NCBI GenBank assembly: GCA_947650365.1
Contig: CANTAL010000101.1
Coordinates: 620,001 to 684,000 of the forward strand
Origin: Chamaelirium japonicum
Taxonomy: Eukaryota > Streptophyta > Magnoliopsida > Liliales > Melanthiaceae
Direction: 5' to 3'
Length of the DNA: 64,000 nt
This document shows positions 941-62,100 of this stretch, one piece after another. The notes below the pieces were generated by a model. The model searched no databases and was not told the origin of the DNA. It saw only the letters and a list, made by a program, of their open reading frames with translations. The position numbers were made by a program, and so were the translations under genes. Each line of letters opens with the position of its first letter. Position 1 is the first letter of the stretch.

Positions 941-2258
941 GAATTAGAATAGATTGTATGAATGAATTAGAATGGATCGTACGAATGAATTAGAATGGAT
1001 CGTACGAAGGAATTAGAATAGATTGTACGAATGATTTAGAATGGATTGTACGAATGAATTAGAATGGATCGTACGAAGGAATTAGAATGGATCGTACGAA
1101 TGAATTAGAATGGATATATTCGTGCAAATGAATTAGAATGGATCGTATGAATGTATTAGAATGGATCGTATGAGTGAATTAGAATGGATCGTACGAATGA
1201 ATTAGAATGGATCGTATGAATGAATTAGAATGGATAGATTCGTGCGAATGAATTAGAATTGATCGTACGAATGAATTAGAATGGATCGTGCGAATGAATT
1301 AGAATGGATCGTACGAATGAATTAGAATCGATCGTACGAATGAACTAGAATGGATACATTCGTGCGAATGAATTAGAATGGATCGTACGAATGAATTAGA
1401 ATGGATCATACGAATGTATTTGAATGGATCTTATGAATGAATTAGAATGGATCGTACGAATGAGTAAGAATGGATCGTACGAATGAAATACAATGGATTG
1501 TACGAATGAATTAGAATGGATTCGTAAGAATGAATTAGAATGGATACATTCGTGCGAGTGAATTAGAATAGATCATACGAATGAGTAAGAATGGATCGTA
1601 CGAATGAAATAGAATAGATTGTACGAATGAATTAGAATAGATCCTACGAATGAATTAGAATAGATCGTGTGAAAAAATTAGAATGGATTGTATGAATGAA
1701 TTAGAATGGATCGTACGAATGAATTAGAATGGATCGTACTAATGAATTAGAATGGATACATTCGTGCGAATGAATTAGAATTGATCATACGAATGAATTA
1801 GAATGGATCGTGTGAATAAATTAGAATGGATCGTACGAATGAATTAGAATGGATCGTACGAATGAACTAGAATGGATACATTCGTGCGAATGAATTAGAA
1901 TGGATCGGACGAATGAATTAGAATGGATCGTACGAATGAATTAGAATGGATCGTACGAATGAATTAGAATGGATACATTCGTGCGAATGAATTAGAATGG
2001 ATCAGACGAATGAATTAGAATGGATCGTACGAATGAATTAGAATGGATCGTACGAATGAATTAGAATGAATCGTACAAATAAATTAGAATGGATACATTC
2101 ATCCGAATGAATTAGAATGGATCATACGAATGAGTAAGAATGGATCGTACGAATGAAATAGAATAGATTGTACGAATGAATTAGAATGAATCATACGAAT
2201 GAATTAGAATATATCATGTGAAAGAATTAGAATGGATTGTATGAATGAATTAGAATGA
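931..2258 (-). repeat. R array, left copy of a 6.7-6.9-kb duplication
   Basis: Units lie on the - strand and read GAATTAGAATGG then ATCGTACG on the + strand. The 28-mers appear as TACATTCGTGCG or TATATTCGTGC, for example near 1110, 1346, 1755 and 1975. The right part closely matches 8160-9120. The block ends at the JA switch (2257). Confidence 0.94.
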
Positions 2259-2271
2259 ATTCGTACGATCC
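2257..2271. repeat. Switch junction JA (R to F), recurrent
   Basis: A GAATTCGTACGATCC core, preceded by a TTGTATGAATG unit and followed by a CATTCGAATTC unit. It occurs at 2257, 9119, 10622, 12811, 17501 (variant), 26172, 28354 (variant), 30864, 36567 and 39025. Its exact reverse complement (GGATCGTACGAATTC) occurs at 5411, 5989, 53042, 58104 and 60975. Confidence 0.93.
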
Positions 2272-2984
2272 ATTCGAATTCATTCGCACGATCCATTCTA
2301 ATTCATTCATACGATCCATTCTAATTCATTCACACGATCCATTCTAATTCATTCGTCTAATCCATTCTGATTCATTCGTACAATCTATTATAATACATTC
2401 GTACGATCCATTCTTACTCATTCCTATGATCCATTCTAATTTATTCGGACGAATGTATCCATTCTAATTTATTTGTACGATCCATTCTAATTCATTCGTA
2501 CGATCCATTCTAATTCATTCGTACGATCCATTCTAATTCATTCGTCCGATCCTTTCTAATTCATTCGCACGAATGTATCCATTCTAATTCATTCGTACGA
2601 TCCATTCTAATTCATTCGTACGATCCATTCTAATTCATTCGTAAGATCCATTCTAATTCATTCATACGATCCATTCTAATTCATTTGTACGATCCATTCT
2701 AATTCATTCGCCCGAATGTATCCATTGTAGTTCATTCGTACGATCCATTCTAATCCATTCGTACGATCCATTCTAATTCATTCGCATGAATGTAACCATT
2801 CTAATTCATTCATTTGATCCATTCTAATTCATTCGTACGATCCATTCTAATTCATTCATCCGATCCATTCTAATTCATTCGCACGAATTATCCATTCTAA
2901 TTCATTCGCACGATCCATTCTAATTCATTCGTACGATCCATTCTAATTCATTCGTACGAACCATTCTAATTCATTCGTAGGATC
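2259..2984 (+). repeat. F array
   Basis: The block opens with the JA tail, whose first full unit has the GAATTC variant (CATTCGAATTC). It carries 28-mers near 2567, 2710 and 2783; the last belongs to the GTAACC/CATTTG module. It ends at JD reversed (2978-2997). It matches 9121-9702. Confidence 0.93.
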
Positions 2985-3112
2985 TTAGAATGGAATATAC
3001 GAATGAATTAGAATGGATCGTACGAATGAATTAGAATGGATCGTATGAATGAATTAGAATGGATCGTACGAATGAATTAGAATGGATCGTGCGAATGAAT
3101 TCGAATGGATCG
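2985..3112 (-). repeat. Short R array between two switches
   Basis: About five units on the - strand. The block ends at GGATCGTACGATCC (3107-3120), a perfect 14-bp palindrome where R turns to F. A matching short block occurs at 9703-9831. Confidence 0.92.
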
Positions 3113-4022
3113 TACGATCCATTCTAATTCATTCATACAATCCATTCTAATTCATTCGCACGAATGTATCCATTCTAATCCATTCGTACGATCCATTCTA
3201 ATCCATTCGTACATTCTAAATCATTCATTTGATCCATTCTAATTCATTCGTACGATCCTTTCTAATTCATTCGCACGATCCATTCTAATTCATTCATAGG
3301 ATCCATTCTAATTCATTCGTACAATCCATTCTAATTCTTTCACACGATCCATTCTAATTCATTCGTACGATCCATTCTAATTCATTCGCACAAATGTATC
3401 CATTCTAATTCATTCGTACGATCCATTCTAATTCATTCGTACGATCCATTCTAATTCATTCGTACGATCCATTCTAATTCTTTCACATGATCCATTCTAA
3501 TTCATTCTATGATCCACTCTTACTCATTCGTATGATCCATTCTAATTCATTCGTACGATCCATTCTAATTCATTCGTATGATCCATTCTAATTCATTCGC
3601 ACAAATGTATCCATTCTAATTCATTCGTACGATCCATTCTAATTCATTCGTACGATCCATTCTAATTCATTCGTACGATCCATTCTAATTCATTCGTACG
3701 ATCCATTCTAATTCATTCGCGAATGTATCCATTCTAATTCATTCGTACGATCCATTCTAATTCATTCGTACGATCCATTTTAATTCATTCGCACGAATGT
3801 ATCCATTCTAGTTCATTCGTACGATCCATTCTAATTCATTCGTACGATCCATTCTAATTCCTTCGTATGATCCATTCTAATTCATTCGTACGATCTATTC
3901 TAATTCATTCGTACGATCCATTCTAATTTATTCGTACGATCCATTCTAATTCCTTCGTACGATCCATTCTAATTCATTCGTACGATCCATTCTAATTTCT
4001 TCGTATGATCCATGCTAATTCA
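3113..4022 (+). repeat. F array
   Basis: A truncated unit (CGTACATTCTAAATC, near 3209) is shared with 9927, which is 6,718 bp downstream. The 28-mers have CGCACAAATG near 3389 and 3599. The array turns to R near 4022. Confidence 0.94.
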
Positions 4023-4494
4023 TACGAATGAATTAGAATGGATCGTACGAATTAATTAGAATGGATCATACGAATTAATTAGAATGGATCCTACGAATGA
4101 ATTAGAATGGATCATACGAATGAATTAGAATGGATCGTACAAAGGAATTAGAATGGATCGTACGAATGAATTAGAATGGATCGTACGAATGAATTAGATA
4201 GAATGGATCATACGAATGAATTAGAATGGATACATTCGCGAATGAGTTAGCATTGATCATACTAATGAATTAGAATGGATCGTACGAATGAATTAGAATG
4301 GATCTTACGAATGAATTAGAATGGATCGTACGAATGAATTAGAATGGATCGTACGAATGAATTAGAATGGATACATTTGTGCGAATGAATTAGAATGGAT
4401 CGTACAAATGAATTAGAATGGATCGTACGAATGAATTAGAATGGATCGTACGAATGAATTTGAATGGATCATACGAATGAATTAGAATGGATCA
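4023..4494 (-). repeat. R array
   Basis: About 20 units. One unit near 4197 has a 4-bp duplication (TTAGATAGAATGG). The block ends in an irregular R-to-F junction near 4492-4502. Confidence 0.93.
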
Positions 4495-4650
4495 CTCATT
4501 CGTATGATCCATTCTAATTTATTCGAACGAATGTATCCATTCTAATTCATTCGTATGTCTAATTCATTCGTACGGTCCATTCTAATTCATTCGCACAATC
4601 CATTCTATTTCATTTGTACGATCCATTCTTACACATTCGTATGATCCATT
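4495..4650 (+). repeat. Short F array ending in switch JB reversed
   Basis: About seven units, one of them shortened (CGTATGTCTAATTC, near 4552). The end is the ATCCAT-T-ATGGAT dyad at 4644-4656. Confidence 0.92.
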
Positions 4651-5417
4651 ATGGATACATTCGTGCGAATGAATTAGAATGGATCATACGAATGAGTAAG
4701 AATGGATCGTACGAATGAAATAGAATGGATTGTGCGAATGAATTAGAATGGATCGTACGAATGAATTAGAATGGATTGTACGAATGAATTAGAATGGATC
4801 GTACGAATGAATTAGAATCTGTACGAATGAATTAGAATGGATCCTACGAATGAATTAGAATAGATCGTGTGAAAGAATTAGAATGGATTGTATGAATGAA
4901 TTAGAATGGATCGTACGAATGAATTAGAATGGATCGTACGAATGAATTAGAATGGATGCATTCGTGCGAATGAATTAGAATTGATCGTACGAATGAATTA
5001 GAATGGATCGTGCGAATGAATTAGAATGGATCGTACGAATGAATTAGAATGGATCGTACGAATGAACTAGAATAGAATGGATCGTACAAATGAATTAGAA
5101 TGGATCGTACGAATGATTTAGAATGGATACATTCGTGCGAATAAATTAGAATGGATCGGACGAATGAATTAGAATGGATCGTACGAATAAATTAGAATGG
5201 ATACATTCATCCGAATGAATTAGAATAGATCATACGAATGAGTAAGAATGGATCGTGTGAAAGAATTAGAATAGATTGTACGAATTAATTAGAATGGATC
5301 CTACGAATGAATTAGAATGGATCGTGTGAAAGAATTAGAATGGATTGTATGAATGAATTAGAATGGATCGTATGAATGAATTAGAATGGATCGTGCGAAT
5401 GAATTCGAATGGATCGT
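4651..5417 (-). repeat. R array
   Basis: The block carries the GAGTAAGAATGG unit typical of the JB side near 4694, and a shortened unit near 4816 (AGAATCTGTACG). It ends at JA reversed (5411-5425). Confidence 0.93.
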
Positions 5418-5798
5418 ACGAATTCATTCTAATTCATTCATACAATCTATTCTAATTCTTTCACACGATCAATTCTAATTCATTCATACACATTCTAATT
5501 CATTCGTACGATCCATTCTAATTCATTCGTACGATCTATTCTATTTCATTCGTACGATCCATTCTAATTCATTCTTACGATCCATTCTAATTCATTCGTA
5601 CGATCCATTCTAATTCATTCGTACGATCCATTCTAATTCATTCGCATGAATGTATCCATTCTAGTTCATTCGTACGATCCATTCTAATTCATTCGTACGA
5701 TCCATTCTAATTCATTCGCACGATCCATTCTAATTCATTCGTACAATCCATTCTATTTCATTCGTACGATCCATTCTTACTCATTCGTATGATCCATT
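5418..5798 (+). repeat. F array
   Basis: The block runs from JA reversed to JB reversed (5792-5804). It includes the CTATTTC/CTTACTC variant pair just before its end. Confidence 0.92.
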
Positions 5799-6170
5799 AT
5801 GGATATATTCGTGCGAATGAATTAGAATGGATCATACGAATGAATAAGAATGGATCGCACGAATGAAATAGAATGGATTGTGCGAATGAATTAGAATGGA
5901 TCGTAGAATGGATCAGAATAGATCGTGTGAAAGAATTAGAATGGATCGTATGAATGAATTAGAATGGATCATGTGAATAAATACGAATGGATCGTACGAA
6001 TTCATTCTAATTCATTCATACAATCCATTCTAATTCTTTCACACGATCTATTCAGATCCATTCTACGATCCATTCTAATTCATTCGCACAATCCATTCTG
6101 TTTCATTCGTACGATCCATTCTTACTCATTCGTATGATCCATTCTAATTCATTCGCACGAATGTATCCAT
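5799..6170. repeat. R array (5799-5995) then F array (5996-6170)
   Basis: The R part holds truncated units (CGTAGAATGG near 5903). It turns to F at JA reversed (5989-6003), and the F part ends at JB (6165-6177). It looks like a shortened version of neighbouring modules. Confidence 0.9.
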
Positions 6171-6177
6171 AATGGAT
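6165..6177. repeat. Switch junction JB (F to R), recurrent
   Basis: The ATCCAT-A-ATGGAT dyad, preceded by GAATGT and followed by a CATACGAATGAGTAAG unit. It occurs at 6165, 17069, 23166, 24632 (variant), 25637, 27391, 39224 and 40692. The reverse complement (ATCCAT-T-ATGGAT with CTTACTC on the left) occurs at 4644, 5792, 38851, 41023, 51364 and 56311. Confidence 0.93.
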
Positions 6178-7014
6178 CATACGAATGAGTAAGAATGGAT
6201 CGTACGAATGAAATACGTACGAATGAATTAGAATGGATCGTACGAATGAACTAGAATGGCTCGTACGGATGAAATAGAATAGATTGTACGAATGAATTAG
6301 AATGGATTCGTACGAATGAATTAGAATGGATACATTCGTGCGAATGAATTAGAATGGATACATTCGTGCGAAAGAATTAGAATAGATCGTATGAATGAAT
6401 TAGGATGGATCCTATGAATGAATTAGAATGGATCGTGCGAATGAATTAGAATAGATCGTACGAATGAATTAGAATAGATCGTACAAATGAATTAGAATGG
6501 ATCGTATGAAGGAACTAGAATGAATCGTACAAACGAATTAGAATGGATATATTCGTCCAAATGAATTAGAATGGATCGTGCGAATGAATTAGAATGGATC
6601 GTACGAATGAATTAGAATGGATCGTACGAATAAATTAGAATGGATCTTACGAATGAATTAGAATGGATCGTACGAATGAATTAGAATGGATCATACGAAT
6701 AAATTAGAATGGATACATTCGTGCGAATGAATTAGAATGGATCGGACGAATGAATTAGAATGGATCGTACGAATGAATTAGAATGGATCAAATGAATGAA
6801 TTAGAATGGTTACATTCATGCGAATGAATTAGAATGGATCGTACGAATGAATTGGAATGGATCGTATGAATGAATTAGAATGGATCGTACGAATGAATTA
6901 GAATGGATCAAATGAATGAATTAGAATGGTTACATTCTTGCGAATGAATTAGAATGGATCGTACGAATGGATTAGAATGGATCGTACGAATGGATTAGAA
7001 TGGATACATTCGAG
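6171..7014 (-). repeat. R array
   Basis: The block starts at JB. The reversed CATTTG/GTAACC module (ATCAAATG ... GGTTACATTC) occurs twice, near 6788 and 6908, about 120 bp apart, as a local duplication. Near 7014 the array turns to F inside a variant 28-mer (TACATTCGAGCG). Confidence 0.93.
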
Positions 7015-8158
7015 CGTATGATCCATTCTAATTCATTCGTCCGATCCATTCTAATTCATTCGCACGAATGTATCCATTCTAATTCATTCGTACGATCCAT
7101 TCTAATTCATTCGTACGATCCATTCTAATTCATTCACAAGATCCATTCTAATTCATTCGTATGATCCATTCTAATTCATTCGTACGATCCATTCTAATTC
7201 ATTCGCACGAATGTATCCATTCTAGTTCATTCGTACGATCCATTCTAATTCATTCGTACGATCCATTCTAATTCATTCGCACGATCCTTTCTAATTCATT
7301 CGTACGATCCATTCTAATTCATTCGTATGATCAATTCTAATTCATTCGTACGATCCATTCTAATTCATTCGCACAAATGTATCCATTCTAATTCATTCGT
7401 ACGATCCATTCTAATTCATTCGCACGATCCATTCTAATTCATTCGTACGATCCATTCTAATTCTTTCACACGATTCATTCTAATTCATTCGTACGATCCA
7501 TTCTAATTCATTCACACGATCCATTCTAATTCATTCGTACGATCCATTCTAATTCATTCATACGATACATTCTAATTCATTCGTATGATCCATTCTAATT
7601 CATTCGCACCAATGTATCCATTCTAATTCAGTCGTACGATCCATTCTAATTCATTCGCACGATCCATTCTAATTTATTCGTACGATCCATTCTAATTCAT
7701 TCGTACGATCCATTCTAATTCAATTGTATGATCCATTCTAATTAATTCGTACGATCCATTCTAATTCATTTGTACGAATGTATCCATTCTAATTCATTCG
7801 TACAATCCATTCTATTTCATTCGTACGATCCATTTTTCCTCATTCGTATGATCCATTCTAATACATTCGTACGATTCATGCTAATTCATTCGCACGATCC
7901 ATTCTAATTCATTTGTACGATCCATTCTTATTCATTCATACGATCCATTCTAATTCATTCGCACAATCTATTCTAATCCATTCAAATCCATTCTAATTCA
8001 TTTTTAAGATCCATTCTAATTCATTCGTACGATCCATTCTAATTCATTCATACAATCCATTTTAATTCTTTCACACGATCCATTCTAATTCATTCGTACG
8101 ATCCATTCTAAATCATTCGTGCAATCCATTCTATTTCATTCGTACGATCAATTCTAAT
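7015..8158 (+). repeat. F array
   Basis: About 48 units, with 28-mers near 7064, 7205, 7371 and 7606. The block ends at an F-to-R junction (CTAATTCATTAGAATGG, near 8153) shared with 22277-22293. Confidence 0.94.
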
Positions 8159-9122
8159 TCATTAGAATGGATCGTACGAATGAATTAGAATGGATCATAT
8201 TAATGAATTATAATGGATCGTACGAATGAATTAGAATGGATCGTACGAACGAATTAGAATGGATCGTACGAAGGAATTAGAATGGATCGTACGAATGAAT
8301 TAGAATGGATATATTCGTGCAAATTAATTAGAATGGATCGTATGAATGAATTAGAATGGATCGTACGAATGAATTAGAATGGATATATTCGTGCAAATGA
8401 ATTAGAATGGATCGTATGAATGTATTAGAATGGATCGTACGAATGAATTAGAATGGATCGTACGAATGAATTAGAATAGATTGTACGAATGAATTAGAAT
8501 AGATCCTACGAATGAATTAGAATGGATCGTGTGAAAGAATTAGAATGGATTGTATGAATGAATTAGAATGGATCGTACGAATGAATTAGAATGGATCGTT
8601 CTAATGAATTAGAATGGATATATTCGTGCGAATGAATTAGAATTGATCGTACGAATGAATTAGAATGGATCGTGCGAATGAATTAGAATGGATCGTACGA
8701 ATGAATTAGAATGGATCGTACGAATGAACTAGAATGGATACATTCGTGCGAATGAATTAGAATGGATCGAACGAATGAATTAGAATGGATCGTACGAATG
8801 AATTAGAATGGATCGTACGAATGAATTAGAATGGATCATACGAATGAATTAGAATGGATACATTCATGCGAATGAATAAGAATGGATCGGATGAATGAAT
8901 TAGAATGGATCGTACGAATGAATTAGAATGGATCGTACAAATAAATTAGAATAGATACATTCGTCCGAATGAATTAGAATGGATCATATGAATGAGTAAG
9001 AATGGATCGTACGAATGAAATAGAATAGATTGTACGAATGAATTAGAATGGATCCTACGAATGAATTAGAATAGATCATGTGAAAGAATTAGAATGGATT
9101 GTATGAATGAATTAGAATGAAT
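8159..9122 (-). repeat. R array, right copy of the 6.7-6.9-kb duplication
   Basis: It closely resembles 1090-2258, including TATATTCGTGC 28-mers and the TGTGAAAGAATTAG unit before the switch. It ends at JA (9119). Confidence 0.93.
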
Positions 9123-9831
9123 TCGTACGATCCATTCGAATTCATTCGCACGATCCATTCTAATTCATTCATATGATCCATTCTAATTCATTCACACGAT
9201 CCATTCTAATTCATTCGTCTAATCCATTATGATTCATTCGTACAATCTATTCAAATACATTCGTACGATCCATTCTTACTCATTCCTATGATCCATTCTA
9301 ATTAATTCGGACGAATATATCCATTCTAACTCATTCGTACGATCCATTCTAATTCATTCGTACGATCCATTCTAATTCATTCGTCCAATCCTTTCTAATT
9401 CATTCGCACGAATGTATCCATTCTAATTCATTCGTACGATCTATTCTAATTCATTCGTACGATCCATTCTAATTTATTCGTAAGATCCATTCTAATTCAT
9501 TCATACGATCCATTCTAATTCATTCGTACGATCTATTCTAATTCATTCGCACGAATGTATCCATTCTAGTCCATTCATCCGATCCATTCTAATTCATTCG
9601 GACGAATTATCCATTCTAATTCATTCGCACGATCCACTCTAATTCATTCGTACGATCTATTCTAATTCATTCGTACGAACCATTCTAATTCATTCTAGGA
9701 TCTTAGAATGGAATATACGAATGAATTAGAATGGATCGTACGAATGAATTAGAATGGATCGTATGAATGAATTAGAATGGATCGTACGAATGAATTAGAA
9801 TGGATCGTGCGAATGAATTCGAATGGATCGT
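9123..9831. repeat. F array (9123-9702) then short R array (9703-9831)
   Basis: This is the second copy of 2259-3112. JD reversed is at 9696-9715, and the terminal GGATCGTACGATCC palindrome is at 9825-9838. The offset from the first copy is 6,718 bp at JD and 6,862 bp at JA, so unit number changed between the copies. Confidence 0.93.
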
Positions 9832-10452
9832 ACGATCCATTCTAATTCATTCATACAATCCATTCTAATTCATTCTCCCGAATATATCCATTCTAATCCA
9901 TTCGTACGATCCATTCTAATCCATTCGTACATTCTAATTCATTCATTTGATCCATTCTAATTCATTCGTACAATCCTTTCTAAGTCATTCGCACGATCCA
10001 TTCTAATTCATTCATAGGATCCATTCTAATTAATTCGTACAATCCATTCTAATTCTTTCACACGATCCATTCTAATTCATTTGTACGATCCATTCTAATT
10101 CCTTCGCTCAAATGTATCCATTCTAATTCATTCGTACGATCCATTCTAATTCATTCGCACGATCCATTCTAATTCATTCGTACGATCCATTCTAATTCTT
10201 TCACATGATCCATTCTAATTCATTCGTATGATCCATTCTTACTCATTCGTATGATCCATTCTAATTCATTCGTACGATCCATTCTAATTCATTCATACGA
10301 TCCATTCTAATTCATTCGTACGATCCATTCTAATTCATTCGTACGATCCATTCTAATTCATTCGCACAAATGTATCCATTCTAATTCATTCGTACGATCC
10401 ATTCTAATTCATTCGTACGATCCATTCTAATTCATTCGTATATTCCATTCTA
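9832..10452 (+). repeat. F array
   Basis: This is the second copy of the 3113 array; the shortened unit CGTACATTC near 9927 marks the correspondence. It ends at JD (10441-10460). Confidence 0.93.
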
Positions 10453-10460
10453 AGATCCTA
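10441..10460. repeat. Switch junction JD (F to R), recurrent
   Basis: TATTCCATTCTAAGATCCTA at 10441, 12630 and 49250. Its reverse complement (TAGGATCTTAGAATGGAATA) lies at 2978 and 9696. The flanking CGTA and CGAATGAATTAG correspond in both orientations. Confidence 0.92.
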
Positions 10461-11959
10461 CGAATGAATTAGAATGGTTCGTACGAATGAATTAGAATGG
10501 ATCGTACGAATAAATTAGAATGGATCGTACATTCGTACGATCCATTCTAATTCATTCGTACGATCCATTCTAATTCATTCATAGAAAAGAATTAGAATGG
10601 ATTGTATGAATGAATTAGAATGAATTCGTACGATCCATTCGAATTCATTCGCACGATCCATTCTAATTCATTCATACGATCCATTCTAATTCTTTCATAC
10701 AATCCATTCTAATTCTTTCACATGATCCATTCTAATTCATTCGTAGGATCCATTCTAATTCATTCGTACAATCTATTCTATTACATTCGAACGATCCATT
10801 CTTACTCAATCGTATGATCCATTCTAATTCATTCGGACGAATGTATCCTATCTAATTTATTCGTACGATCCATTCTAATTCATTCGTACGATCCATTCTA
10901 ATTCATTCGTACGATCCATTCTAATTCATTCGCATGAATGTATCCATTCTAATTCATTCGTACGATCCATTCTAATTCATTCGTACGATCCATTCTAATT
11001 CATTCGTAAGATCCATTCTAATTCATTCATAAGATCCATTCTAATTCATTCGTACGATCCATTCTAATTCATTCGCACGAATGTATCCATTCTAGTTCAT
11101 TCGTACGATCCATTCTAATTCATTCGTACGATCCATTCTAATTCATTCGCACGATCCATTCTAATTTATTCGTACGATCCATTCTAATTCATTCATACGA
11201 TCCATTCTAATTCATTCGTACGATCCATTCTAATTCATTCGCACAAATATATCCATTCTAATTCATTCGTACGATCCATTCGAATTCATTCGCACGATCC
11301 ATTCTAATTCATTCGTACGATCCATTCTAATTCATTCGCACGATCTATTCTTATTCATTCGCACAATCCATTCTAATTCATTCGCACGAATGTATCCATT
11401 CTAATTCATTCAAACAATCCATTCTAATTCATTCGTACGATCTATTCTAATTCATTCGTATGATCCATTCTAATTAATTCGTATGATCCATTCTAATTCA
11501 TTCGTATGATCCATTCTAATTCATTCATACAATCCATTCTAATTCATTCACACGAATGTATCCATTCCATTTAATTCGTACGATCCATTCTAATTCATTC
11601 GTATGATCTATTCTTATTCATTCGCACGATCCAGTCTAATTGATTCGCACGATCCATTCTAATTCGTTCGCACGAATGTATCCATTCTAATTCATTCGTA
11701 CGATCCATTCTAATTCATTAATATGATCCATTCTAATTCATTCGTACGATCCATTCTAATTCATTAATATGATCCATTCTAATTCATTCGTACGATCCAT
11801 TCTAATTCATATGCACAAAGGTATCCATTCTAATCCATTCGTAGGATCCATTCTAATCCATTCATACGATCCATTCTAATTCATTCGTACGATCCATTCT
11901 AATTCATTGGCTCGAATGTATCCATTCTAATCCATTCGTATGATCCATTCTAATTCATT

Positions 11960-11996
11960 CGCATGAATGTAACCATTCTAATTCATTCATTTGATC
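11960..11996 (+). repeat. GTAACC/CATTTG variant pair (marker module)
   Basis: A 28-mer with GCATGAATGTAACC is followed by a 23-mer with CATTTGATCC. It is found on the + strand near 2784, 11960, 14149, 15887, 19091, 38240, 44418, 45633, 51992, 56969, 61807 and 63688. On the - strand (ATCAAATG ... GGTTACATTC) it lies near 6788, 6908, 22492, 39628, 42555, 49800, 52590 and 57650. It is a useful tracer of module movement. Confidence 0.9.
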
Positions 11997-12495
11997 CATT
12001 CTAATTCATTCGTACGATCCATTCTAATTCATTCGTCCGATCCATTCTAATTCATTCGCACGAATGTATCCATTCTAATTCATTCATACGATCCATTCTA
12101 ATTCATTCGTACGACCCATTCTAATTCATTCGTACAATCCATTCTAATTCATTCGTACGATCCATTCTATTTTATTCTAATTCTTTCACACGATCCATTC
12201 TAATCCATTCTAATTCTTTCACACGATCCATTCTAATTCATTCGTACGTTCCATTCTAATTCATTAGCACGATCCATGCTAATTCATTCGTTCGATCAAT
12301 TCTAATTCATTAGCACGATCCATTCTAATTCATTCGTACGATCCATTCTAATTCATTCGTACGATCCATTCTAATTCATTCGCACGATCCATTCTAATTC
12401 ATTCATAGGATCCATTCTAATTCATTCATACGATCTATTCTAATTCTTTCGCATGAATGTATCCATTCTAATTCATTCGCACGAATGTATCCATT

Positions 12496-36627: not shown

Positions 36628-36669
36628 ATTCGTACGATCGTACGAATTAGAATGGATCCATTCTAATTC
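36628..36669. repeat. Compound palindrome in mosaic
   Basis: ATTCGTACGATCGTACGAAT (36628-36647) is a perfect 20-bp palindrome. It overlaps a second perfect 26-bp palindrome centred on GGATCC (36644-36669). Together they bring F, R and F units head to head within 42 bp. Confidence 0.9.
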
Positions 36670-48280: not shown

Positions 48281-49017
48281 TCCATTCTAATTCATTCGTA
48301 TGATCCATTCTAATTCATTCGTCCGATCCATTCTAATTCATTCGCACGAATGTATCCATTCTAATTCATTCGTACGATCCATACTAATTTATTCGTACGA
48401 TCCATTCTAATTCATTCGTAAGATCCATTCTAATTCATTCGTACGATCCATTCTAATTCATTCGTACGATCCATTCTAATTCCTTCGTACGATCCATTCT
48501 AATTCATTCGTACGATCCATTCTAATTCATTCGTACGATCCATTCTAATTCCTTCGTACGATCCATTCTAATTTATTCGTACGATCCATTCTAATTCATT
48601 CGCGTAATCTATTCTAATTCATTCGTACGATCCATTCAAATTCATTCGTACGATCCATTCAAATTCATTCGTACGATCCATTCTAATTCATTCGCACGAT
48701 CCATTCTAATTCATTCGCGCAATCTATTCTAATTCATTTTCACGATCCATTCTAATTCATTCGTACGATCCATTCTAATTCTTTCACACGATCCATTCTA
48801 ATTCATTCGTACGATCCATTCTAATTCATTCGTACGATCTATTCTAATTCATTCGTACGATCCATTCTACTTCATTCGTACGATCCATTCTAATTCCTTC
48901 GCACGATCCATTCTAATTCATTCATACAATCTATTCTAATTCTTTCACACGATCCATTCTAATTCATTCGTACGATCCATTCTAATTCATTCGTGCAATC
49001 CATTCTTTTTCATTCGT
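48281..49017 (+). repeat. F array
   Basis: Mostly 23-mers with few 28-mers (near 48342). It has CGCGTAATC and CGCGCAATC variants near 48601 and 48717. It ends at the ATTCGTACGAAT palindrome (49012-49023). Confidence 0.94.
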
Positions 49018-50581
49018 ACGAATGAATTAGAATGGATACATTTGTGCGAATGAATTAGAATGGATCGTACGAATGAATTAGAATGGATACATTTGTGCGA
49101 ATGAATTAGAATGGATCGTACGAATGGATTAGAATCGATCGTACAAATGGATTAGAATGGATACATTCGTGCGAATGAATTAGAATGGATCATACGAATG
49201 AGTAAGAATGGTCTAATTCATTCGTACGATCCATTCTAATTCATTTGTATATTCCATTCTAAGATCCTACGAATGAATTATAATGGATCGTACGAATGAA
49301 TTAGAATGGATCATACGAATGAATTAGAATGGATCGTGCGAATGAATTAGAATGGATACATTCGTGCGAATGAATTAGAATTGATCGTACGAATGAATTA
49401 GTATGGATCATGGGAATGAATTAGAATGGATTGTACGAATGAATTAGAATGGATCGTACGAATGAATTAGAATGGATCGTGCTAATGAATTAGAATTGAT
49501 CGAACGAATGAATTAGCATGGATCGTGCTAATGAATTAGAATGGAACGTACGAATGAATTAGAATGGATCGTGTGAAAGAATTAGAATGGATTAGAATGG
49601 ATCGTGTGAAAGAATTAGAATGAATTAGAATGGATCGTACGAATGAATTAGAATGGATTGTGTGAATGAATTAGAATGGACCGTACGAATGAATTAGAAT
49701 GGATCGTATGAATGAATTAGAATGGATACATTCGTGCGAATGAATTAGAATGGAGCGGATGAACGAATTAGAATGGATCGTACGAATGAATTATAATGGA
49801 TCAAATGAATGAATTAGAATGGTTACATTCATGCGAATGAATTAGAATGGATCGTACGAATGGATTAGAATGGATCGTACGAATGATTTAGAATAGATCA
49901 TACGAATGAGTAAGAATGAATCGTACGAATGAATTAGAATCGATACATTTGTGCGAATGAATTAGAATGGATCGTATGAATGAATTAGAATGGATACATT
50001 TGTGCGAATGAATTAGAATGGATCGTAGGAATGAATTAGAATGGATCGTACGAATGAATTAGAATGGATCGTACGAATGAATTAGACTGGATCGTACGAA
50101 TGAATTTGAATGGATACATTTGTGCGAATGAATCTAAATGGATTGTATGAATGAATTACAATGGATCCTACTAATGAATTAGAATGGATCGTACGAATGA
50201 ATTAGAATAGCTCATACGAATGAATTAGAATGAATCGTATGAATGAATTAGAATGGTTACATTCGTGCGAATGAATTAGAATAGATCGTACGAATGAATT
50301 AGAATGGATCGTACGAATAAATTAGAATGGATCGTGGGAATGAATTAGAATGGATCGTAAATTAGAATGGATCCACCGAATGAGTTAGAATGGATCATAC
50401 GAATGAATTAGAATGGATTGTACGAATAAATTAGAATGGATTGTGCGAATGAATTAGAATGGATCGTATGAATGAATAAGAATGATCGTACGAATGAATT
50501 AGAATGGATCGTGCAAATGAATTAGCATGAATCATACGAATGTATTAGAATGGATCGTATGAATGAATTAGAATGAATCGT
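49018..50581 (-). repeat. R array with a short F interruption
   Basis: R at 49018-49212, F at 49213-49258, JD at 49250-49269, then R to 50581. It carries the CTAATG/ATCGAACG cluster near 49480, the reversed CATTTG/GTAACC module near 49800, and AATCTAAATGG at 50131, also found at 46521 and 55090. Confidence 0.92.
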
Positions 50582-53500
50582 ACGATCCATTCTAATTCAT
50601 TCGTACGATCCATTCTAATTCATTCGCACGAATGTATCCATTCTAGTTCATTCGTACGATCCATTCTAGTTCATTCGTATGATCCATTCTAATTCATTCG
50701 TACGATCCATTCTAATTCATTCGTATGATCCATTCTAATTAATTCGTATGATCCATTCTAATTCATTCGTACGATCCATTCTAATTCATTCATACAATCC
50801 ATTCTAATTCATTCGCACGAATGTATCCATTCTAATTAATTCGTACGATCCATTCTAATTCATTCGTATGATCCATTCTTATTCATTCGCACGATCCAGT
50901 CTAATGGATTCGCACAATCCATTCTAATTCATTCACACGAATGTATCCATTCTAATTCATTCGTACGATCCATTCTAATTCATTAATATGATCCATTCCA
51001 ATTCATTCGCACGATCCATTCTAATTCATTCGTACGATCCATTCTAATTCTTTCGTACGATCCATTCTAATTCATTCGCACTATCCATTCTAATTCATTC
51101 GTACAATCTATTCTATTTCATTCGTACGATCCATTCTTACTCATTCGTATGATCCATTCTAATTCATTCGGACGAATGTATCCATTCTAATTTATTCGTA
51201 CGATCCATTCTAATTCATTCGTACGATCCATTCTAATTCATTTGTACGATCCATTCTAATTCAATCGTCTTATCCATTCTAATTCATTCGTACGGTCCAT
51301 TCTAATTCATTCGCACAATCCATTCTATTTCATTCGTACGATCCATTCTTACTCATTTGTATGATCCATTATGGATACATTCGTGCGAATGAATTAGAAT
51401 GGATCATACGAATGAGTAAGAATGCATCGTACGAATGAAATAGATTGGATTGTGCGAATGAATTAGAATGGATCGTACGAATGAATTAGAATGGATCATG
51501 TGAAAGAATTAGAATGGATTGTATGAATGAATTAGAATGGATCGTATGAATGAATTAGAATGGATCGTACGAATGAACTAGAATGGATACATTCGTGCGA
51601 ATGAATTAGAATGGATCGTACGAATGAATTAGAATGGATCTTACGAATGAATTAGAATGGATCGTGCGATCCATGCTAATTCATTCGTTCGATCAATTCT
51701 AATTCATTAGCACGATCCATTCTAATTCATTCGTACGATCCATTCTAATTCATTCGCACGATCCATTCTAATTCATTCGTACGATCCATTCTAATTCTTT
51801 CACACGATTCATTCTAATTCATTCGTACGATCCATTCTAATTCATTCGTACGATCTATTCTAATTCATTCGTACGATCCATTCTAATTTCATTCGTACGA
51901 TCCATTCTAATTCATTCACTCGAATGTATCCATTCTAATCCATTCGTACGATCCATTCTAATCCATTCGTACGATCCATTCTAATTCATTCGCATGAATA
52001 TAACCATTCTAATTCATTCATTTGATCCATTCTAATTCATTCGTCCGATCCATTCTAATTCATTCGTCCGATCCATTCTAATTCATTCGCACGAATGTAT
52101 CCATTCTAATCCATTCGTAAGATCCATTCTAATTCATTCGTACGATCTATTCTAATTCATTCATACGATCCATTCTAATTCATTAATATGATCCATTCTA
52201 ATTCATTCGTACGATCCATTCTAATTCATATGCACAAAGGTATTTATTCTAATTCATTCGTACGATCCATTCTAATTCAGGATCGTACGAATGAATTAGA
52301 ATGGATATATTCGTGCGAATGAATTAGAATTGATCGTACGAATGAATTAGAATGGATCGTGCGAATGAATTAGAATGGATCGTACGAATGAATTAGAATG
52401 GATCGTACGAATGAATTAGAATGGATCATACAAATGAATTAGAATGGATCTTACGAATGAATTAGAATGGATCGTACGAATGAATTAGAATGGATTGTAC
52501 GAATGAATTAGAATTGATACATTCGTGCGAATGAATTAGAATGGATCGGACGAATGAACTAGAATGGATCGTATGAATGAATTAGAATGGATCAAATGAA
52601 TGAATTAGAATGGTTACATTCATGCGAATGAATTAGAATGGATCGTACGAATGGATTAGAATGGATCGTACGAATGGATTAGAATGGATACATTCGAGTG
52701 AATGAATTAAAATGGATCGTACGAATGAAATTAGAATGGATCGTACGAATGAATTAGAATGGATCGTACGAATGAATTAGAATGGATCGTACGAATGAAT
52801 TAGAATGGATCGTACGAATGAATTAGAATGGATCGTACGAAAAAATTAGAATGGATACATTCGTCCGAATAAATTAGAATGGATCATACGAATGAGTAAG
52901 AATGGATCGTACGAATGAAATAGAATAGATTGTACGAATGAATTAGAATGGATCCTACGAATGAATTAGAATGGATCGTGTGAAATAATTAGAATGGATT
53001 GTATGAATGAATTAGAATGGATCGTGTGAATGAATTCGAATGGATCGTACGAATTCATTCTAATTCATTCATACAATCCATTCTAATTCTTTCAAACGAT
53101 CCATTCTAATTCATTCGTACGTTCCATTCTAATTCATTAGCACGATCCATGCTAATTCATTCGTTCGATCAATTCTAATTCATTAGCACGATCCAATCTA
53201 ATTCATTCGTACGATCCATTCTATTTCCTTCGTACGATCCATTCTAATTCATTCGTACGATCTATTCTAATTCATTCGTACGATCCATTCTAATTCATTC
53301 GTACGATCCATTCTAATTCATTCGTACGATCCATTCTAATTCATTCGTAGGATCCATTCTAATTCATTCGTGCAATCCATTCTATTTCATTCGTACGATC
53401 CATTCTTACTCATTCGTACGATCCATTCTAATTCATTCACACGAATGTATCCATTCGTATGAATGAATTAGAATAGATTGTACGAATGAATTAGAATGGA

Positions 53501-55020
53501 TCGTACGAATGAATTAGAATGGATCGTACGAAGGAATTAGAATGGATCGTACGAATGAATTAGAATGGATCATACGAATGAATTAGAATAGATCGTACGA
53601 ATGAATTAGAATGGATCGTACGAAGGAATTAGAATGGATCGTACGAATGAATTAGAATGGATATATTCGTGCAAATGAATTAGAATGGATCGTATGAATG
53701 TATTAGAATGGATTGTATGAGTGAATTAGAATGGATTGTACGAATGAATTAGAATGGATTGTATGAATGAATTAGAATGGATCGTACGAATGAATTAGAA
53801 TCGATCATACGAATTAATTAGAATGGATCATACGAATGAATTAGAATGGATCGTACGAATGAATTAGAATGGATCGTACGAATGAATTAGAATGGATACA
53901 TTCGTGCGGTCCATTCTAATTCATTCGCACAATCCATTCTATTTCATTCGTACGATCCATTCTTACTCATTGGTACGATCCATTCTAATTCATTCGCACA
54001 AATGTATCCATTCTAATTCATTCGTACGAATCCATTCTAATTCATTCGTACAATCTATTCTATTTCATTCGTAAGATCCATTCTAATTCATTCATACGAT
54101 CCATTCTAATTCATTCGTAATATCCATTCTAATTCATTCATAGGATCCATTCTAATTCATTCATACAATCCATTCTAATTCATTCGCACGAATGTATCCA
54201 TTCTAATTCATTCGTACGATCAGTTCTAATTCATTCACAAAATCTATTCTAATTCATTCATACGATCCATTCTAATTCATTCACACGAATGTATCCATTC
54301 TAATTCATTCATACGATCCATTCTATTCATTCGTACAATCCATTCTTACTCATTGGTACGATCCATTCTAATTCATTCGCACGAATGTATCCATTCTAAT
54401 TCATTCGTACGAATCCATTCTAATTCATTCGTACGATCCATTCTAATACATTCATACGATCCATCCTAATTCATTTGCACGAATATATCCATTCTAATTC
54501 ATTCGTACGATCCATTGTAGTTCCTTCGTACGATCCATTCTAATTCATTCGTACGATATATTATAATTCATTCATACGATCCATTCTAATTCATTCGTAC
54601 GATCCATTCTAATTCCTTCGTACGATCCATTCTAATTTATTCGCACGAATGTATCCATTCTAGTTCATTTGTACAATCCATTCTAATTCATTCGTACGAT
54701 CCATTCTAATTCATTCATACAATCCATTCTTACTCATTCGTATGATCCATTCTAATTCATTCGCACGAATGTATCCATTCTAATTCATTGATACAATCCA
54801 CTGTAATTCATTCCGTACGATCCATTCTAATTCATTCGTACGATCGTACGAATGAATTAGAATGGATCGTACGAAAGAATTAGAATAGATTGTACGAATG
54901 AATTAGAATGGATCCTACGAATGAATTAGAATGGATCGTGTGAAAGAATTAGAATAGATCATACAAATGAATTAGAATGTATCGTACGAATGAATTTGAA
55001 TGGATCGTACGAATGAATTA
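50050..55020. repeat. About 5-kb higher-order repeat, copy A
   Basis: Landmarks and their partners in copy B: AATCTAAATGG 50131/55090, CCAGTCTAATGG 50897/55861, JB reversed 51364/56311, TGCACAAAGG 52231/57242, ACGAATGTATCC at JC 53441/58457, and the 60-bp palindrome 54814/59945. The offset grows from 4,959 to 5,131 bp through small changes in unit number. Blocks run R (to 50581), F (to 51370), R (to 51665), F (to 52280), R (to 53049), F (to 53458), R (to 53909), F (to 54843), R. Confidence 0.92.
54814..54873. repeat. 60-bp perfect palindrome at an F-to-R switch, copy A
   Basis: The two 30-base arms (54814-54843 and 54844-54873) are exact reverse complements with no spacer. The centre is CGTACGATCGTACG. 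Beyond 30 bp an extra C in TTCCGTACG breaks the pairing. Confidence 0.95.
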
Positions 55021-58000
55021 GAATGGATCGTACGAATGAATTAGACTGGATCGTACGAATGAATTTGAATGGATACATTTGTGCGAATGAATCTAAATGG
55101 ATTGTATGAATGAATTATAATGGATCGTACGAATGAATTAGAATGGATCGTACGAATGAATTAGAATAGCTCATACGAATAAATTAGAATGATCGTATGA
55201 ATGAATTAGAATGGTTACATTCGTGCAAATGAATTAGAATAGATCGTACGAATGAATTAGAATGGATCGTACGAATAAATTAGAATGGATCGTGCGAATG
55301 AATTAGAATGGATCGTACGAATGAATTAGAATGGATCCACCAAATGATTTAGAATGGATCATACGAACGAATTAGAATGGATTGTACGAATGAATTAGAA
55401 TGGATTATGCGAATGAATTAGAATGGATCGTATGAATGAATAAGAATGGATCGTACGAATGAATTAGAATGGATCGTGCGAATGAATTAGCGTGAATCGT
55501 ACGAATGTATTAGAATGGATCGTACAAATGAATTAGAATGAATCGTACGATCCATTCTAATTCATTCGTACGATCCATTCTAATTCATTTGCACGAATGT
55601 ATCCATTCTAGTTCATTTGTAAGATCCATTCTAGTTCATTCGTATGATCCATTCTAATTCATTCGTACGATCCATTCTAATTCATTCGTATGATCCATTC
55701 TAATTAATTCGTATGATCCATTCTAATTCATTCGTACGATCCATTCTAATTCATTCATACAATCCATTCTAATTCATTCGCAGGAATGTATCCATTCTAA
55801 TTAATTCGTACGATCCATTCTAATTCATTCGTATGATCCATTCTTATTCATTCGCACGATCCAGTCTAATGGATTCGCACGATCCATTCTAATTCGTTCG
55901 CACGAATGTATCCATTCTAATTCATTCGTACGATCCATTCTAATTCATTAATATGATCCATTCTAATTCATTCGCACTATCCATTCTAATTCATTCGTAC
56001 GATCCATTCTAATTCATTCGCACGATCCATTCTAATTCATTCATACAAACTATTCTATTTCATTCGTACGATCTATTCTTACTCATTCGTATGATCCATT
56101 CTAATTCATTCGGACGAATGTATCCATTCTAATTTATTCGTACGATCCATTCTAATTCATTCATACGATCCATTCTAATTCATTCGTACGATCCATTCTA
56201 ATTCATTCGCACGAATGTATCCATTCTAATTCATTCGTACGGTCCATTCTAATTCATTCGCACAATCCATTCTATTTCATTCGTACGATCCATTCTTACT
56301 CATTCGTATGATCCATTATGGATACATTCGTGCGAATGAATTAGAATGGATCATACGAATGAGTAAGAATGGATCGTACGAATGAAATAGAATGGATTGT
56401 GCGAATGAATTAGAATGGATCCTACGAATGAATTAGAATGGATCGTGTGAAAGAATTAGAATGCATTGTATGAATGAATTAGAATAGATCGTATGAATGA
56501 ATTAGAATGGATCGTACGAATGAATTAGAATGGATACATTCGTGCGAATGAATTAGAATGGATCGTACGAATGAATTAGAATGGATCATACGAATGAATT
56601 AGAATGGATCTTACGAATGAATTAGAATGGATCGTGCGATCCATGCTAATTCATTCGTTCGATCAATTCTAATTCATTAGCACGATCCATTCTAATTCAT
56701 TCATACGATCCATTCTAATTCATTCGCACGATCCATTCTAATTCATTCGTACGATCCATTCTAATTCTTTCACACGATCCATTCTAATTCATTCGTACGA
56801 CCCATTCTAATTCATTTGTACGATCTATTCAAATTCATTCGTACGATCCATTCTAATTTCATTCGTACGATCCATTCGAATTCATTCGCTCGAATGTATC
56901 CATTCTAATCCATTCGTACGATCCATTCTAATCCATTCGTACGATCCATTCTAATTCATTCGCATGAATGTAACCATTCTAATTCATTAATTTGATCCAT
57001 TCTAATTCATTCGTACGATCCATTCTAATTCATTCGTCCGATCCATTCTAATTCATTCGCACGATCCATTCTAATTCATTCGTATGATCCATTCTAATTC
57101 ATTCGTCCGATCCATTCTAATTCATTCGTACGATCCATTCTAATTCATTCGTACGATCCATTCTAATTCATTCGTACGATCCATTCTAATTCATTAATAT
57201 GATCCATTCTAATTCATTCGTACGATCCATTCTAATTCATATGCACAAAGGTATCCATTCTAATTCATTCGTACGATCCATTCTAATTCAGGATCGTACG
57301 AATGAATTAGAATGGATACATTCGTGCGAATGAATTAGAATTGATCGTACGAATGAATTAGAATGGATCGTGCGAATGAATTAGAATGGATCGTACGAAT
57401 GAATTAGAATGGATCATACGAATGAACTAGAATGGATACATTCGTGCGAATGAATTAGAATGGATCGTACGAATGAATTAGAATAGATCGTACGAATGAA
57501 TTAGAATGGATCTTACGAATGAATTAGAATGGATCGTACGAATGAATTAGAATGGATCGTACGAATGAATTAGAATGGATACATTCGTGCGAATGAATTA
57601 GAATGGATCGGATGAATGAATTAGAATGGATCGTATGAATGAATTAGAATGGATCAAATGAATGAATTAGAATGGTTACATTCATGCGAATGAATTAGAA
57701 TGGATCGTACGAATGGATTAGAATGGATCGTACGAATGGATTAGAATGGATACATTCGAGCGAATGAATTAAAATGGATCGTACGAATGAAATTAGAATG
57801 GATCGTATGAATGAATTAGAATAGATCGTACGAATGAATTAGAATGGATCATACGAATGAATTAGAATGGATCGTACGAATAAATTAGAATGGATACATT
57901 CATCCGATTGAATTAGAATGGATCATACGAATGAGTAAGAATGGATCGTACGAATGAAATAGAATAGATTATACGAATGAATTAGAATGGATCCTACGAA

Positions 58001-60120
58001 TGAATTAGAATGCATCGTGTGAAAGAATTAGAATGGATTGTATGAATGAATTAGAATGGATCGTATGAATGAATTAGAATGGATCGTGCGAATGAATTCG
58101 AATGGATCGTACGAATTCATTCTAATTCATTCATACAATCCATTCTAATTCTTTCACACGATCCATTCTAATTCATTCGTACGGTCCATTCTAATTCATT
58201 AGCACGATCCATGCTAATTCATTCGTTCGATCAATTCTAATTCATTAGCACTATCCATTCTAATTCATTCGTACGATCCATTCTAATTCCTTAGTACGAT
58301 CCATTCTAATTCATTCGTACGATCCATTCTAATTCCTTCGTACGATCCATTCTAATTCATTCGTACGATCCATTCTAATTCATTCGTGCAATCCATTCTA
58401 TTTCATTCATACGATCCATTCTTACTCATTCGTACGATCCATTCTAATTCATTCACACGAATGTATCCATTCGTACGAATGAATTAGAATAGATTGTACG
58501 AATGAATTAGAATGGATCGTACGAATGAATTAGAATGGATCATACGAAGGTATTAGAATGGATCGTACGAATGAATTAGAATGGATCGTACGAATGAATT
58601 AGAATGGATCGTACGAAGGAATTAGAATGGATTGTACGAATGAATTAGAATGGATATATTCGTGCAAATGAATTAGAATGGATCGTATGAATGTATTAGA
58701 ATGGATCGTATGAGTGAATTAGAATGGATCGTACGAATGAATTAGAATGGATTGTATGAATGAATTAGAATGGATCGTACGAATGAATTAGAATGGATCA
58801 TACGAATTAATTAGAATGGATCATACGAATGAATTAGAATGGATCGTACGAATGAATTAGAATGGATCGTACGAATGAATTAGAATGGATACATTCGTAC
58901 GATCCATTCTAATTCATTCGCACAATCCATTCTATTTCATTCGTAGGATCCATTCTTACTCATTGGTACGATCCATTCTAATTTATTCGCACGAATGTAT
59001 CCATTCTAATTTATTCGTACGAATCCATTCTAATTCATTCGTACAATCTATTCTATTTCATTCGTAAGATCCATTCTAATTCATTCGTACGATCCATTCT
59101 AATTCATTCGTACGATCCATTCTAATTCATTCATACAATCCATTCTAATTCATTCGCACGAATGTATCCATTCTAATTCATTCGTACGATCAGTTCTAAT
59201 TCATTCACAAAATGTATTCTAATTCATTCATACGATCCATTCTAATTCATTCACACGAATGTATCCATTCTAATTCATTCATACGATCCATTCTATTCAT
59301 TCGTACGATCCATTCTTACTCATTGGTACAATCCATTCTAATTCATTCGCACGAATGTATCCATTCTAATTCATTCGTACGAATCCATTTTAATTCATTC
59401 GTATGATCCATTCTAATACATTCATACGATCCATACTAATTCATTTGCTCGAATATATCCATTCTAATTCATTCGTACGATCCATTCTAATTCCTTCGTA
59501 CGATCCATTCTAATTCATTCGTACGATCTATTCTAATTCATTCGTACGATCCATTCTAATTCATTCGTACGATCCATTCTAATTCCTTCGTACGATCCAT
59601 TCTAATTCATTCGCACGAATGTATCCATTATAGTTCATTTGTACGATCCATTCTAATTCATTCGCACGATCCATTCTAATTCATTCATATGATCTATTCT
59701 AATTCATTCATACAATCCATTCTAATTCTTTCACACGATCCATTCTAATTCATTCGTATGATCCATTCTAATTCATTCGTACGATCCATTCTAATTCATT
59801 TGTACGATCCATTCTAATTCATTCGTACAATCTATTCTATTTTATTCGTATGATCCATTCTTACTCATTCGTATGATCTATTCTAATTCATTCGCACGAA
59901 TGTATCCATTCTAATTCATTCATTCAATCCATTCTAATTCATTCCGTACGATCCATTCTAATTCATTCGTACGATCGTACGAATGAATTAGAATGGATCG
60001 TACGAATGAATTAGAATAGATTGTACGAATGAATTAGAATGGATCCTATGAATGAATTAGAATGGATCGTGTGAAAGAATTAGAATGGATCGTACAAATG
60101 AATTAGAATGGATCGTACGA
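55021..60120. repeat. About 5-kb higher-order repeat, copy B
   Basis: The same series of nine orientation blocks as copy A: R to 55546, F to 56317, R to 56636, F to 57290, R to 58111, F to 58474, R to 58896, F to 59974, then R. The switches JB reversed (56311-56323), JA reversed (58104-58118) and JC (58469-58480) match copy A in order and spacing. A partial further copy of the R part near 53.6/58.6 kb reappears at 62101-62456. Confidence 0.92.
59945..60004. repeat. 60-bp perfect palindrome at an F-to-R switch, copy B
   Basis: The same 30 + 30 bp structure, centred between 59974 and 59975, 5,131 bp from copy A. The same extra C (TTCCGTACG at 59942) lies outside the left arm; allowing a one-base bulge there, the pairing runs on further. 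Confidence 0.95.
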
Positions 60121-60982
60121 ATGAATTTGAATGGATCATACGAATGAGTAAGAATGGATCGTACAAATGAAATAGAATGGATTGTACGAATGAATTAGAA
60201 TGGATCGTACGCAAGAATTAGAATGGATCGTGTGAAAGAATTAGAATGCATTGTATGAATGAATTAGAATGGATCGTATGAATGAATTAGAATGGATCGT
60301 GCGAATGAATTCGAATGGATCGCATGATCCATTCGAATAGAATGGATCGTATGAATGAATTAGAATGGATCGGGCGAATGAATTAGAATGGATTGTAGGA
60401 ATGAATTAGAATGGATCGTATGAATGAATTAGAATGGATCGTATGAATGAATTAGAATGGATCATGCGAATGAATTAGAATGGATTGTACGAATGAATTA
60501 GAATGGATTGTACGAATGAATTAGAATGGATCATACAAATGAATTAGAATGGATCATACGAATGAGTAAGAATGGATCGTACGAATGAATTAGAATGGAT
60601 ACATTCATGCGAATGAATTAAAATGGATCGTACGAATGAATTAGAATGGATCGTACGAATGAATTAGAATGGATCTTACGAATGAATTAGAATGGATCAT
60701 ACGAATGGATTAGAATGGATACATTCGTGCGAATGAATTAGAGTGGATTGTATGAATGAATTAGAATGGATCGTACGAATGAATTAGAATGGATCGTACG
60801 AATGAATTAGAATGGATCGTACGAATGGATTAGAATGGATTGTACGAATGAATTAGAATGGATCCTACGAATGAATTAAAATGGATCGTGTGAAAGAATT
60901 AGAATGGATTGTATGAATGAATTAGAATGGATCGTATGAATGAATTAGAATGGATCGTGCGAATGAATTCGAATGGATCGTA
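59975..60982 (-). repeat. R array with a half-unit F interruption
   Basis: R to 60325; a partial F unit (ATGATCCATTCGAATAG, about 60326-60337); then R to 60982. The block ends at JA reversed (60975-60989). TGTGAAAGAATTAG units occur before both turns. Confidence 0.92.
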
Positions 60983-62100
60983 CGAATTCATTCTAATTCA
61001 TTCATACAATCCATTCTAATTCTTTCACACGTTCCATTATAATTCATTCGTACGTTCCATTCTGATTCATTAGCACGATCCATGCTAATTCATTTGTTCG
61101 ATCAATTCTAATTCATTCGCACGATCCATTCTAATTCATTCATATGATCCATTCTAATTCACTCATACAATCCATTCTAATTCTTTCACACGATCCATTC
61201 TAATTCATTCGTAGGATCCATTCTAATTCATTCGTACAATCCATTCTAATCCATTCGTACGATCCATTCTAATTCATTCGTACGATCCATTCTAATTCAT
61301 TCGTACGATCCATTCTAATTCATTCATATAATCCATTCTAATTCATTCGCACGAATGTATCCATTCTAATCCATTCGTACGATCCATTCTAATTCATTCG
61401 TACGATCTATTCTAATTCATTCGTTCGATCCATTCTAATTCATTCGAACGAATGTATCCATTCTAATTCATTCGTATGATCCATTCTAATTCATTCGTAC
61501 GATCCATTCTAATTCATTCGTATGATCCATTCTAATTCATTCATACGACCCATTCTAATTCATTCGTACGAATCCATTCTAATTCATTCCTAAAATCTAT
61601 TCTATTTCATTCGTACGATCCATTCTTACTCATTCGTATGATCCATTCTAATTCATTCGAACGAATGTATCCATTCTAATTTATTCGTACGATCCATTCT
61701 AATTCATTCGTACGATCCATTCTAATTCATTCGCTCGAATGTATCCATTCTAATCCATTCGTACGATCTAGTCTAATCCATTCGTACGATCCATTCTAAT
61801 TCATTCGCATGAATGTAACCATTCTAATTCATTCATTTGATCCATTCTAATTCATTCGTACAATCCATTCTAATTCATTAGCACGATCCATGCTAATTCA
61901 TTCGTTCGATCAATTCTAATTCATTAGCACGATCCATTCTAATTCATTCGTACGATCCATTCTAATTCATTCGCATGATCCATTCTAATTCATTCATAGG
62001 ATCCATTCTAATTCATTCATACGATCTATTCTAATTCTTTCGCACGAATGTATCCTTTCTAATTCATTCGCACGAATGTATCCATTCTAATTCATTCGTA
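60983..62100 (+). repeat. F array
   Basis: About 47 units. It carries TTAGCACGATCCATGC near 61071 and 61879, and the GTAACC/CATTTG module near 61806. It turns to R at ATTCGTACGAAT (62096-62107). Confidence 0.94.

Follow-up and report, generated by a model that had tools for sequence, protein, structure and literature searches.

An inversion joint of a 23-bp satellite that recurs in both orientations across a genome

The stretch of DNA analyzed here (the window, 64 kb) consists entirely of a 23-bp satellite (F unit, ATCCATTCTAATTCATTCGTACG) whose orientation flips every few hundred bases, which raises the question of whether the flips are separate breaks or copies of a small number of old joints. 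Two-strand decomposition of the window resolved 171 orientation blocks (40,024 bases F and 23,976 bases R), the long ones being ~90 to 95% identical to the 23-bp unit, and no open reading frame of 150 amino acids, tRNA, or Rfam family at gathering score was found in positions 1..64000. The source genome is of eukaryotic size (1,518,659,071 bases, or 1.52 Gb, in 3,253 contigs), with the window at positions 620001-684000 of contig C113, and the repeat has the attributes of a eukaryotic satellite, being a long tandem array of short noncoding units that is abundant and present at many loci. All of the twenty 10-kb outside loci that were fetched by their match to the joint described below (recent duplication may link some of them) are satellite over nearly their whole length, and in these, as in the window, the subarrays run in both orientations. 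One of them, L022, contains a GC-rich nonsatellite insert of ~0.65 kb within the array (~7900 to 8560), with an open frame of 210 amino acids, stop to stop, that is partly satellite. A distant blastn search with window positions 2000-4000 against plasmids and phages, a search for a 46-mer and a 23-mer of the repeat among viral contigs, and a search for a 23-mer and a degenerate 26-mer in a genome contig collection gave no match; these collections may omit records of the source genome, so the absent matches do not show that the satellite is unknown. Six 17- to 18-mers of the repeat were not found in the papers searched. Five short stretches from contig ends, three of them consisting of N, showed no telomere repeat.

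The array is not uniform in its units. A 28-bp variant (CATTCGCACGAATGTATCC, e.g., at 2562-2580) occurs among the 23-bp units, with 81 exact copies on the plus strand and 38 on the minus strand; its extra AATGT resembles a few opposite-strand bases, and four 23-bp units with one 28-bp unit make 120 bp, a period detected in the window. At unit positions 18 to 23, the changes C18T, G19A, C22T, and G23A have a mean of ~13%, whereas C-to-T changes at the four remaining C positions have ~4% (these percentages are shares of monomers, not independent mutations), an excess that CpG methylation and deamination would be expected to produce. The commonest change, T20C (24%), is not of that kind. Sixty-six of the 171 orientation blocks crowd into 5 kb (32545-37589), inside which lies a nested repeat (33027-33403, 34376-34754, and 35782-36086).

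One R-to-F junction, JA, had been claimed in the original prediction to be reused at least 15 times in both orientations, and this count is borne out: 15 copies of the core GAATTCGTACGATCC lie in 2257-60989, and 100 dinucleotide shuffles gave none. Nine of the copies are plus and six minus, where ten and five had been given. The specific neighbors ascribed to every copy are present on most of them (left, ggattgtatgaatgaattagaat; right, attcgaattcattcgcacgatcc), with departures on one side each at 30864, 10622, and 12811 (left) and at 42627 and 5989 (right). The core with its first ten right-hand bases (25-mer GAATTCGTACGATCCATTCGAATTC) is exact in 12 of the 15 copies, 8 plus and 4 minus. The center of JA reads GAATGAATTCG-TACGATCCATT-CGAATTCATTC, in which 11 bases separate the two 11-bp halves of an inverted match. 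The outer flanks of JA recur in relatives at 3109, 9827, and 62765, which carry ggatCGTACGatcc at the center, with a plain palindrome, GGATCGTACGATCC; templating from the opposite arm would produce such a difference, in either direction. The copies and the larger units that contain them are collected in Table 1.

Table 1. JA joints and joint-bearing units in the window
Feature	Position	Strand	Observation
JA joint	2257..2271	+	Arms 94.8% inverted over 348 bp
JA joint	5411..5425	-	Core and flank comparison
JA joint, palindrome center	5989..6003	-	Right monomer mutated; arms 90.9% over 350 bp
JA joint	9119..9133	+	Core match, arm comparison
JA joint	10622..10636	+	Left arm rearranged ~40 bp out
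JA joint, tandem copy of 10622	12811..12825	+	Left arm rearranged ~40 bp out
Near-copy of JA core, one change (GAATTCGTAAGATCC)	17501..17515	+	
JA joint, center of palindrome 25890-26513	26172..26186	+	Arms 97.9% over 329 bp, spacer 61 bp
JA joint	28354..28368	+	Inverted copies at 53042 and 58104
JA joint	30864..30878	+	Different left arm; relative on contig C60
JA joint	36567..36581	+	Core match
JA joint, palindrome center	39025..39039	+	Score 41, within shuffled maxima; arms 92.9% over 309 bp
JA core, ordinary right side	42627..42641	-	Relatives on contigs C9 and C17
JA joint	53042..53056	-	Inside direct 4.6-kb repeat 50047-54675 / 55006-59645
JA joint	58104..58118	-	Second copy of 4.6-kb repeat 50047-54675 / 55006-59645
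JA joint	60975..60989	-	Arms 98.2% over 226 bp, larger offset
Unit with three joints (JB, JA, JB)	5677..6839		Inverted copy 38213-39351, 95.2% over 1163 columns (1.16 kb)
Inverted partner of 5677-6839, three joints	38213..39351		
2.2-kb tandem duplication	10323..14700		Copies 10323-12534 / 12512-14700, direct, 98.6%, 4 switches each

Common descent of the plus and minus copies should be visible in their flanks, and when these were aligned and placed in trees, private flank variants common to both orientations were found, as the original prediction had anticipated. Sharing extends beyond the core: over 0 to 200 bp, the minus copy at 5989 and the plus copy at 39025 have arm identities of 0.97 (left) and 0.96 (right), and the plus copy at 28354 and the minus copy at 58104 have 0.96 and 0.98, against an in-phase background of ~0.85 for unrelated stretches. 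Averaged over all 105 pairs, the left arm is above background only in the first 25 bp and the right arm at 0 to 50 and 100 to 200 bp; the other averages are at or below background because subgroups differ in their neighbors and because monomer gains and losses break the register. In a tree of 14 of the 15 copies (42627 excluded), the pair of 5989 (minus) and 39025 (plus) is supported at 99/97, and a topology with the minus copies as a single clade is rejected (p-AU, 2.6e-63). The best 14-copy tree requires 4 changes of the orientation label, 2 of them forced by well-supported branches, compared with 4.3 for shuffled labels; with 42627 included (15 rows), 5 changes are required. The orientation of JA copies does not track descent, and common descent with repeated flipping is a well-supported reading of the flanks.

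The joint also travels inside larger segments. Besides the units in Table 1, 28220-28547 matches the inverted 57924-58252 at 98.5%, JA included, and the direct repeat 50047-54675 / 55006-59645 has 91.6% identity (97.5% without gaps), with seven joints in each copy. When monomers were scored by shared rare variants, a scheme that gave maxima of 37 to 47 in three monomer-order shuffles (scores of 40 to 47 are thus within the shuffled range), 13 direct and 7 inverted segments scored at least 100. At scores of at least 40 there are 108 direct segments, 17 of them with JA or its near-copy in both arms, and 38 inverted segments, of which 9 have it in both; three of these nine are self-palindromes, with scores of 74, 57, and 41. 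Overall, direct copying dominates in the window: 24-mers found exactly twice are direct in 1,526 cases and inverted in 676 (31% inverted, compared with 47% under random placement). The original idea that a segment with the switch was copied and inverted as a unit holds insofar as inverted JA-bearing segments exist, but the order of events is not fixed: a direct duplication with a later inverted exchange would end in the same arrangement.

JA had been treated as a local event of this window, whereas the joint is genome-wide. The 25-mer occurs at 7,374 forward and 7,355 reverse sites (14,729 in total; control, 0/0), although the even split alone proves little because contig strand is arbitrary. 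Among the 100 JA sites listed, all on contig C1, the first 64 comprise 33 plus and 31 minus sites, followed by an unbroken run of 36 plus sites; within that run, four sites recur at exactly 169,800 bp, and the 1.5-kb stretches at C1 2490326 and 2660126 are identical at 1500 of 1501 positions. Such an exact recurrence suggests that long tandem duplication also spreads the joint or that the assembly duplicated it. The 401-bp JA region has full- or near-full-length matches of 89 to 100% at 40 places on 20 contigs among the 40 of 2,092 candidates that were scored, the window included, and five of eight excised matches, one of them the window's own, have the exact core. Each of the twenty outside loci has 5 to 18 orientation switches, and 18 have the exact JA core; across these loci and the window, the left and right 23-bp neighbors each have no more than 2 mismatches in 42 of 46 copies. 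In a tree of 50 copies (those too near a locus end were omitted here, as in the own-arm permutation and stem scores below), JA subtypes are found on several contigs. Copies from different contigs are intermingled: contig labels change 23 times over 44 rows, compared with 26.1 when shuffled and a possible minimum of 6, although 10 of 200 shuffles were as low, which indicates slight clustering by contig. By rough inference, the satellite may total ~79 Mb from its density in the window (12 25-mers per 64 kb) or ~105 Mb from that in the outside loci (28 per 200 kb).

The other joints behave similarly. When joints flanked on each side by a block of at least 40 bp are counted, the 20 outside loci contain 241, of which 215 have a twin of 95% identity or more in another locus; for the 210 that lack an exact JA core, the figure is 185. 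Artificial joints have such a twin in only 8 of 240 cases at random phase and 22 of 241 at the same phases. This high share relative to artificial joints indicates that the joints in the sampled loci are largely inherited. In the window, 54 of 102 joints have such a twin elsewhere, and about half are thus without one in this sample. A 90% threshold (230/241) was discarded as lax, given that it admits 79 of 240 and 117 of 241 artificial joints and that the clusters are single linkage. A few inversion-site sequences are conserved across the genome, JA according to the genome count and the others according to the 20 JA-selected loci. Joints of type JB (such as 4668, 6168, and 17072 in the window) occur in 12 of the 20 loci, those of type JC (such as 932 and 58472) in 17, and those of type JE (such as 30778 and 57290) in 6; the JD joint (2984) was found in 1.

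Some JA copies are the centers of palindromes, with inverted arms of up to 98% identity over 329 bp and a spacer of 38 or 61 bp. Among 24-mers found exactly twice, inverted, within 1.2 kb, 64 of 94 center on JA. Over 49 copies, median inverted-stem scores were 72 for a copy's own arms, 62 between copies, and 34 for the control, so a short stem is present family-wide; 9 own-arm stems from these nonindependent copies lie above the control's 99th percentile and 16 above its 95th. The spacer offset added to the 15-bp core is 46 in 23 of the 49 copies, 23 in 16, and 0 in 8. Over full arms, the own-arm score of 45 copies was 161, compared with 144.3 (standard deviation, 3.2) for random pairing, a value not reached in 20,000 permutations, and the cross-copy score (144) was hardly above background (139). 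Long palindromic arms in all JA copies were considered and rejected, as the stem and permutation tests find them in a subset only. The variant TATCCCTTCTAATTTATTC (19-mer) occurs in the window solely in the two arms of 26172, for whose palindrome a long DNA hairpin is predicted, and the shared near stem uses a variant pair that is also present elsewhere (153 sites in 264 kb). A first junction test on 76 long-block joints (blocks of <100 bp excluded) was weak overall, with 7 below 0.05 compared with 3.8 expected; five of these seven are JA. We read these sequence patterns as a short inherited stem, probably with later re-copying of the arms in some copies.

We place the probability at about 0.75 that JA is an old inversion joint of the 23-bp satellite, formed once and multiplied genome-wide within the array. 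The many flip points would then be copies of a few old joints, with copying contributing more flips than new breaks do. The founding event was probably a fold-back strand switch: the end of a strand would have paired with its own sequence and been extended backward along it, leaving a 38-bp spacer between inverted arms, or 61 bp with one more monomer. At the joint itself the overlap is 0 to 2 bases, and the 11-bp inverted match of GAATGAATTCG and CGAATTCATTC in the sequence may represent microhomology at the spacer edge. Unequal exchange and segmental duplication would have multiplied the joint, and recombination between oppositely oriented repeats would have flipped the segments containing it. 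The stem-loop would also let each arm of a copy serve as template for the other, which would yield the long near-perfect stems of some copies. No selected function of JA is needed.

How the first joint arose is the point on which an alternative carries most weight. A stem like that of a fold-back would also result if a tandem duplication came first and one of its copies was then inverted, the arms being paralogous copies. We consider this two-step origin possible but doubtful: tandem duplications of high identity are present (2.2 kb at 98.6%) and the longer spacer exceeds the shorter by a whole monomer, but own arms are closer to each other than randomly paired arms are; the two-step origin also predicts a matching far joint for each palindrome. 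It is improbable that JA is instead a self-renewing inversion seed, whose stem-loop would repeatedly prime fold-back copying, invert neighboring satellite, rebuild near-perfect palindromes, and so have set the orientation pattern of perhaps 5 to 7% of the genome. By analogy with what has been suggested for Tribolium inversion sites, selection might maintain JA as an element of centromeric or heterochromatic DNA that forms a hairpin and binds protein, a reading with which its conserved context in the sampled loci and the predicted hairpin at 26172 agree. However, conservation inside an amplified family is no sign of selection, and JB, JC, and JE are likewise shared across several loci, which means that amplification alone suffices; we regard selection on JA as decidedly unlikely.

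Two further readings have very little left to recommend them. Repeated breakage at a preferred sequence could have rebuilt JA many times, and the window, with 933 exact TCGTACGA palindromes, offers a plausible hotspot. As originally argued, though, independent breaks are poorly suited to rebuilding this joint: only 0 to 2 of its bases agree with both consensuses, the number varying with the position that the decomposition assigns to the joint, and copies share private variants on both flanks, which contradicts independent origins. Across unique switch contexts (blocks of <30 bp excluded), the mean overlap is 1.58, compared with 0.77 expected; a location of switch points mainly at TCGTACGA was rejected, as the 8-bp overlap is found in just 3 of 64 such contexts. 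An assembly or fold-back read artefact is equally improbable. Satellite assembly is error-prone, and one pair of stretches 169.8 kb apart is nearly identical, but JA copies are found on many contigs, with several percent divergence among them.

Human satellite arrays contain inverted blocks, with orientation switches inside simple satellites, as here. The closest known system is that of the Tribolium madens satellites, for which orientation changes are described at a few highly conserved inversion sites, reported in 2,044, 3,486, and 6,428 copies of 98 to 99% similarity (PMC13081366). The likeness is one of organization, namely, conserved joints present thousands of times (PMC13081366). The T. 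madens joints are described as having diverged units, with predicted hairpins in TmSat1; the monomers differ (23 bp here, compared with a ~110-bp basic element and 704-bp TmSat2 monomers), and switches are spaced by several kilobases there and by a few hundred bases here (PMC13081366). In contrast to the two-arm macro-dyads of kilobases described for the beetle, the window has 171 blocks in 64 kb and no dominant two-arm layout. Human fold-back inverted duplications, explained by strand self-pairing, share with JA the inverted arms around a spacer; however, each of those described is a rearrangement in an individual patient, usually with a spacer of a few kilobases, whereas JA has spacers of 38 to 61 bp and thousands of copies (PMC3907307). 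Orientation switches in this satellite act as heritable markers, so that past duplication, inversion, and arm conversion can be followed one joint at a time. Beetle inversion sites have recently been proposed to be functional, and the pattern in this 23-bp repeat suggests that such sites can also arise by amplification alone.
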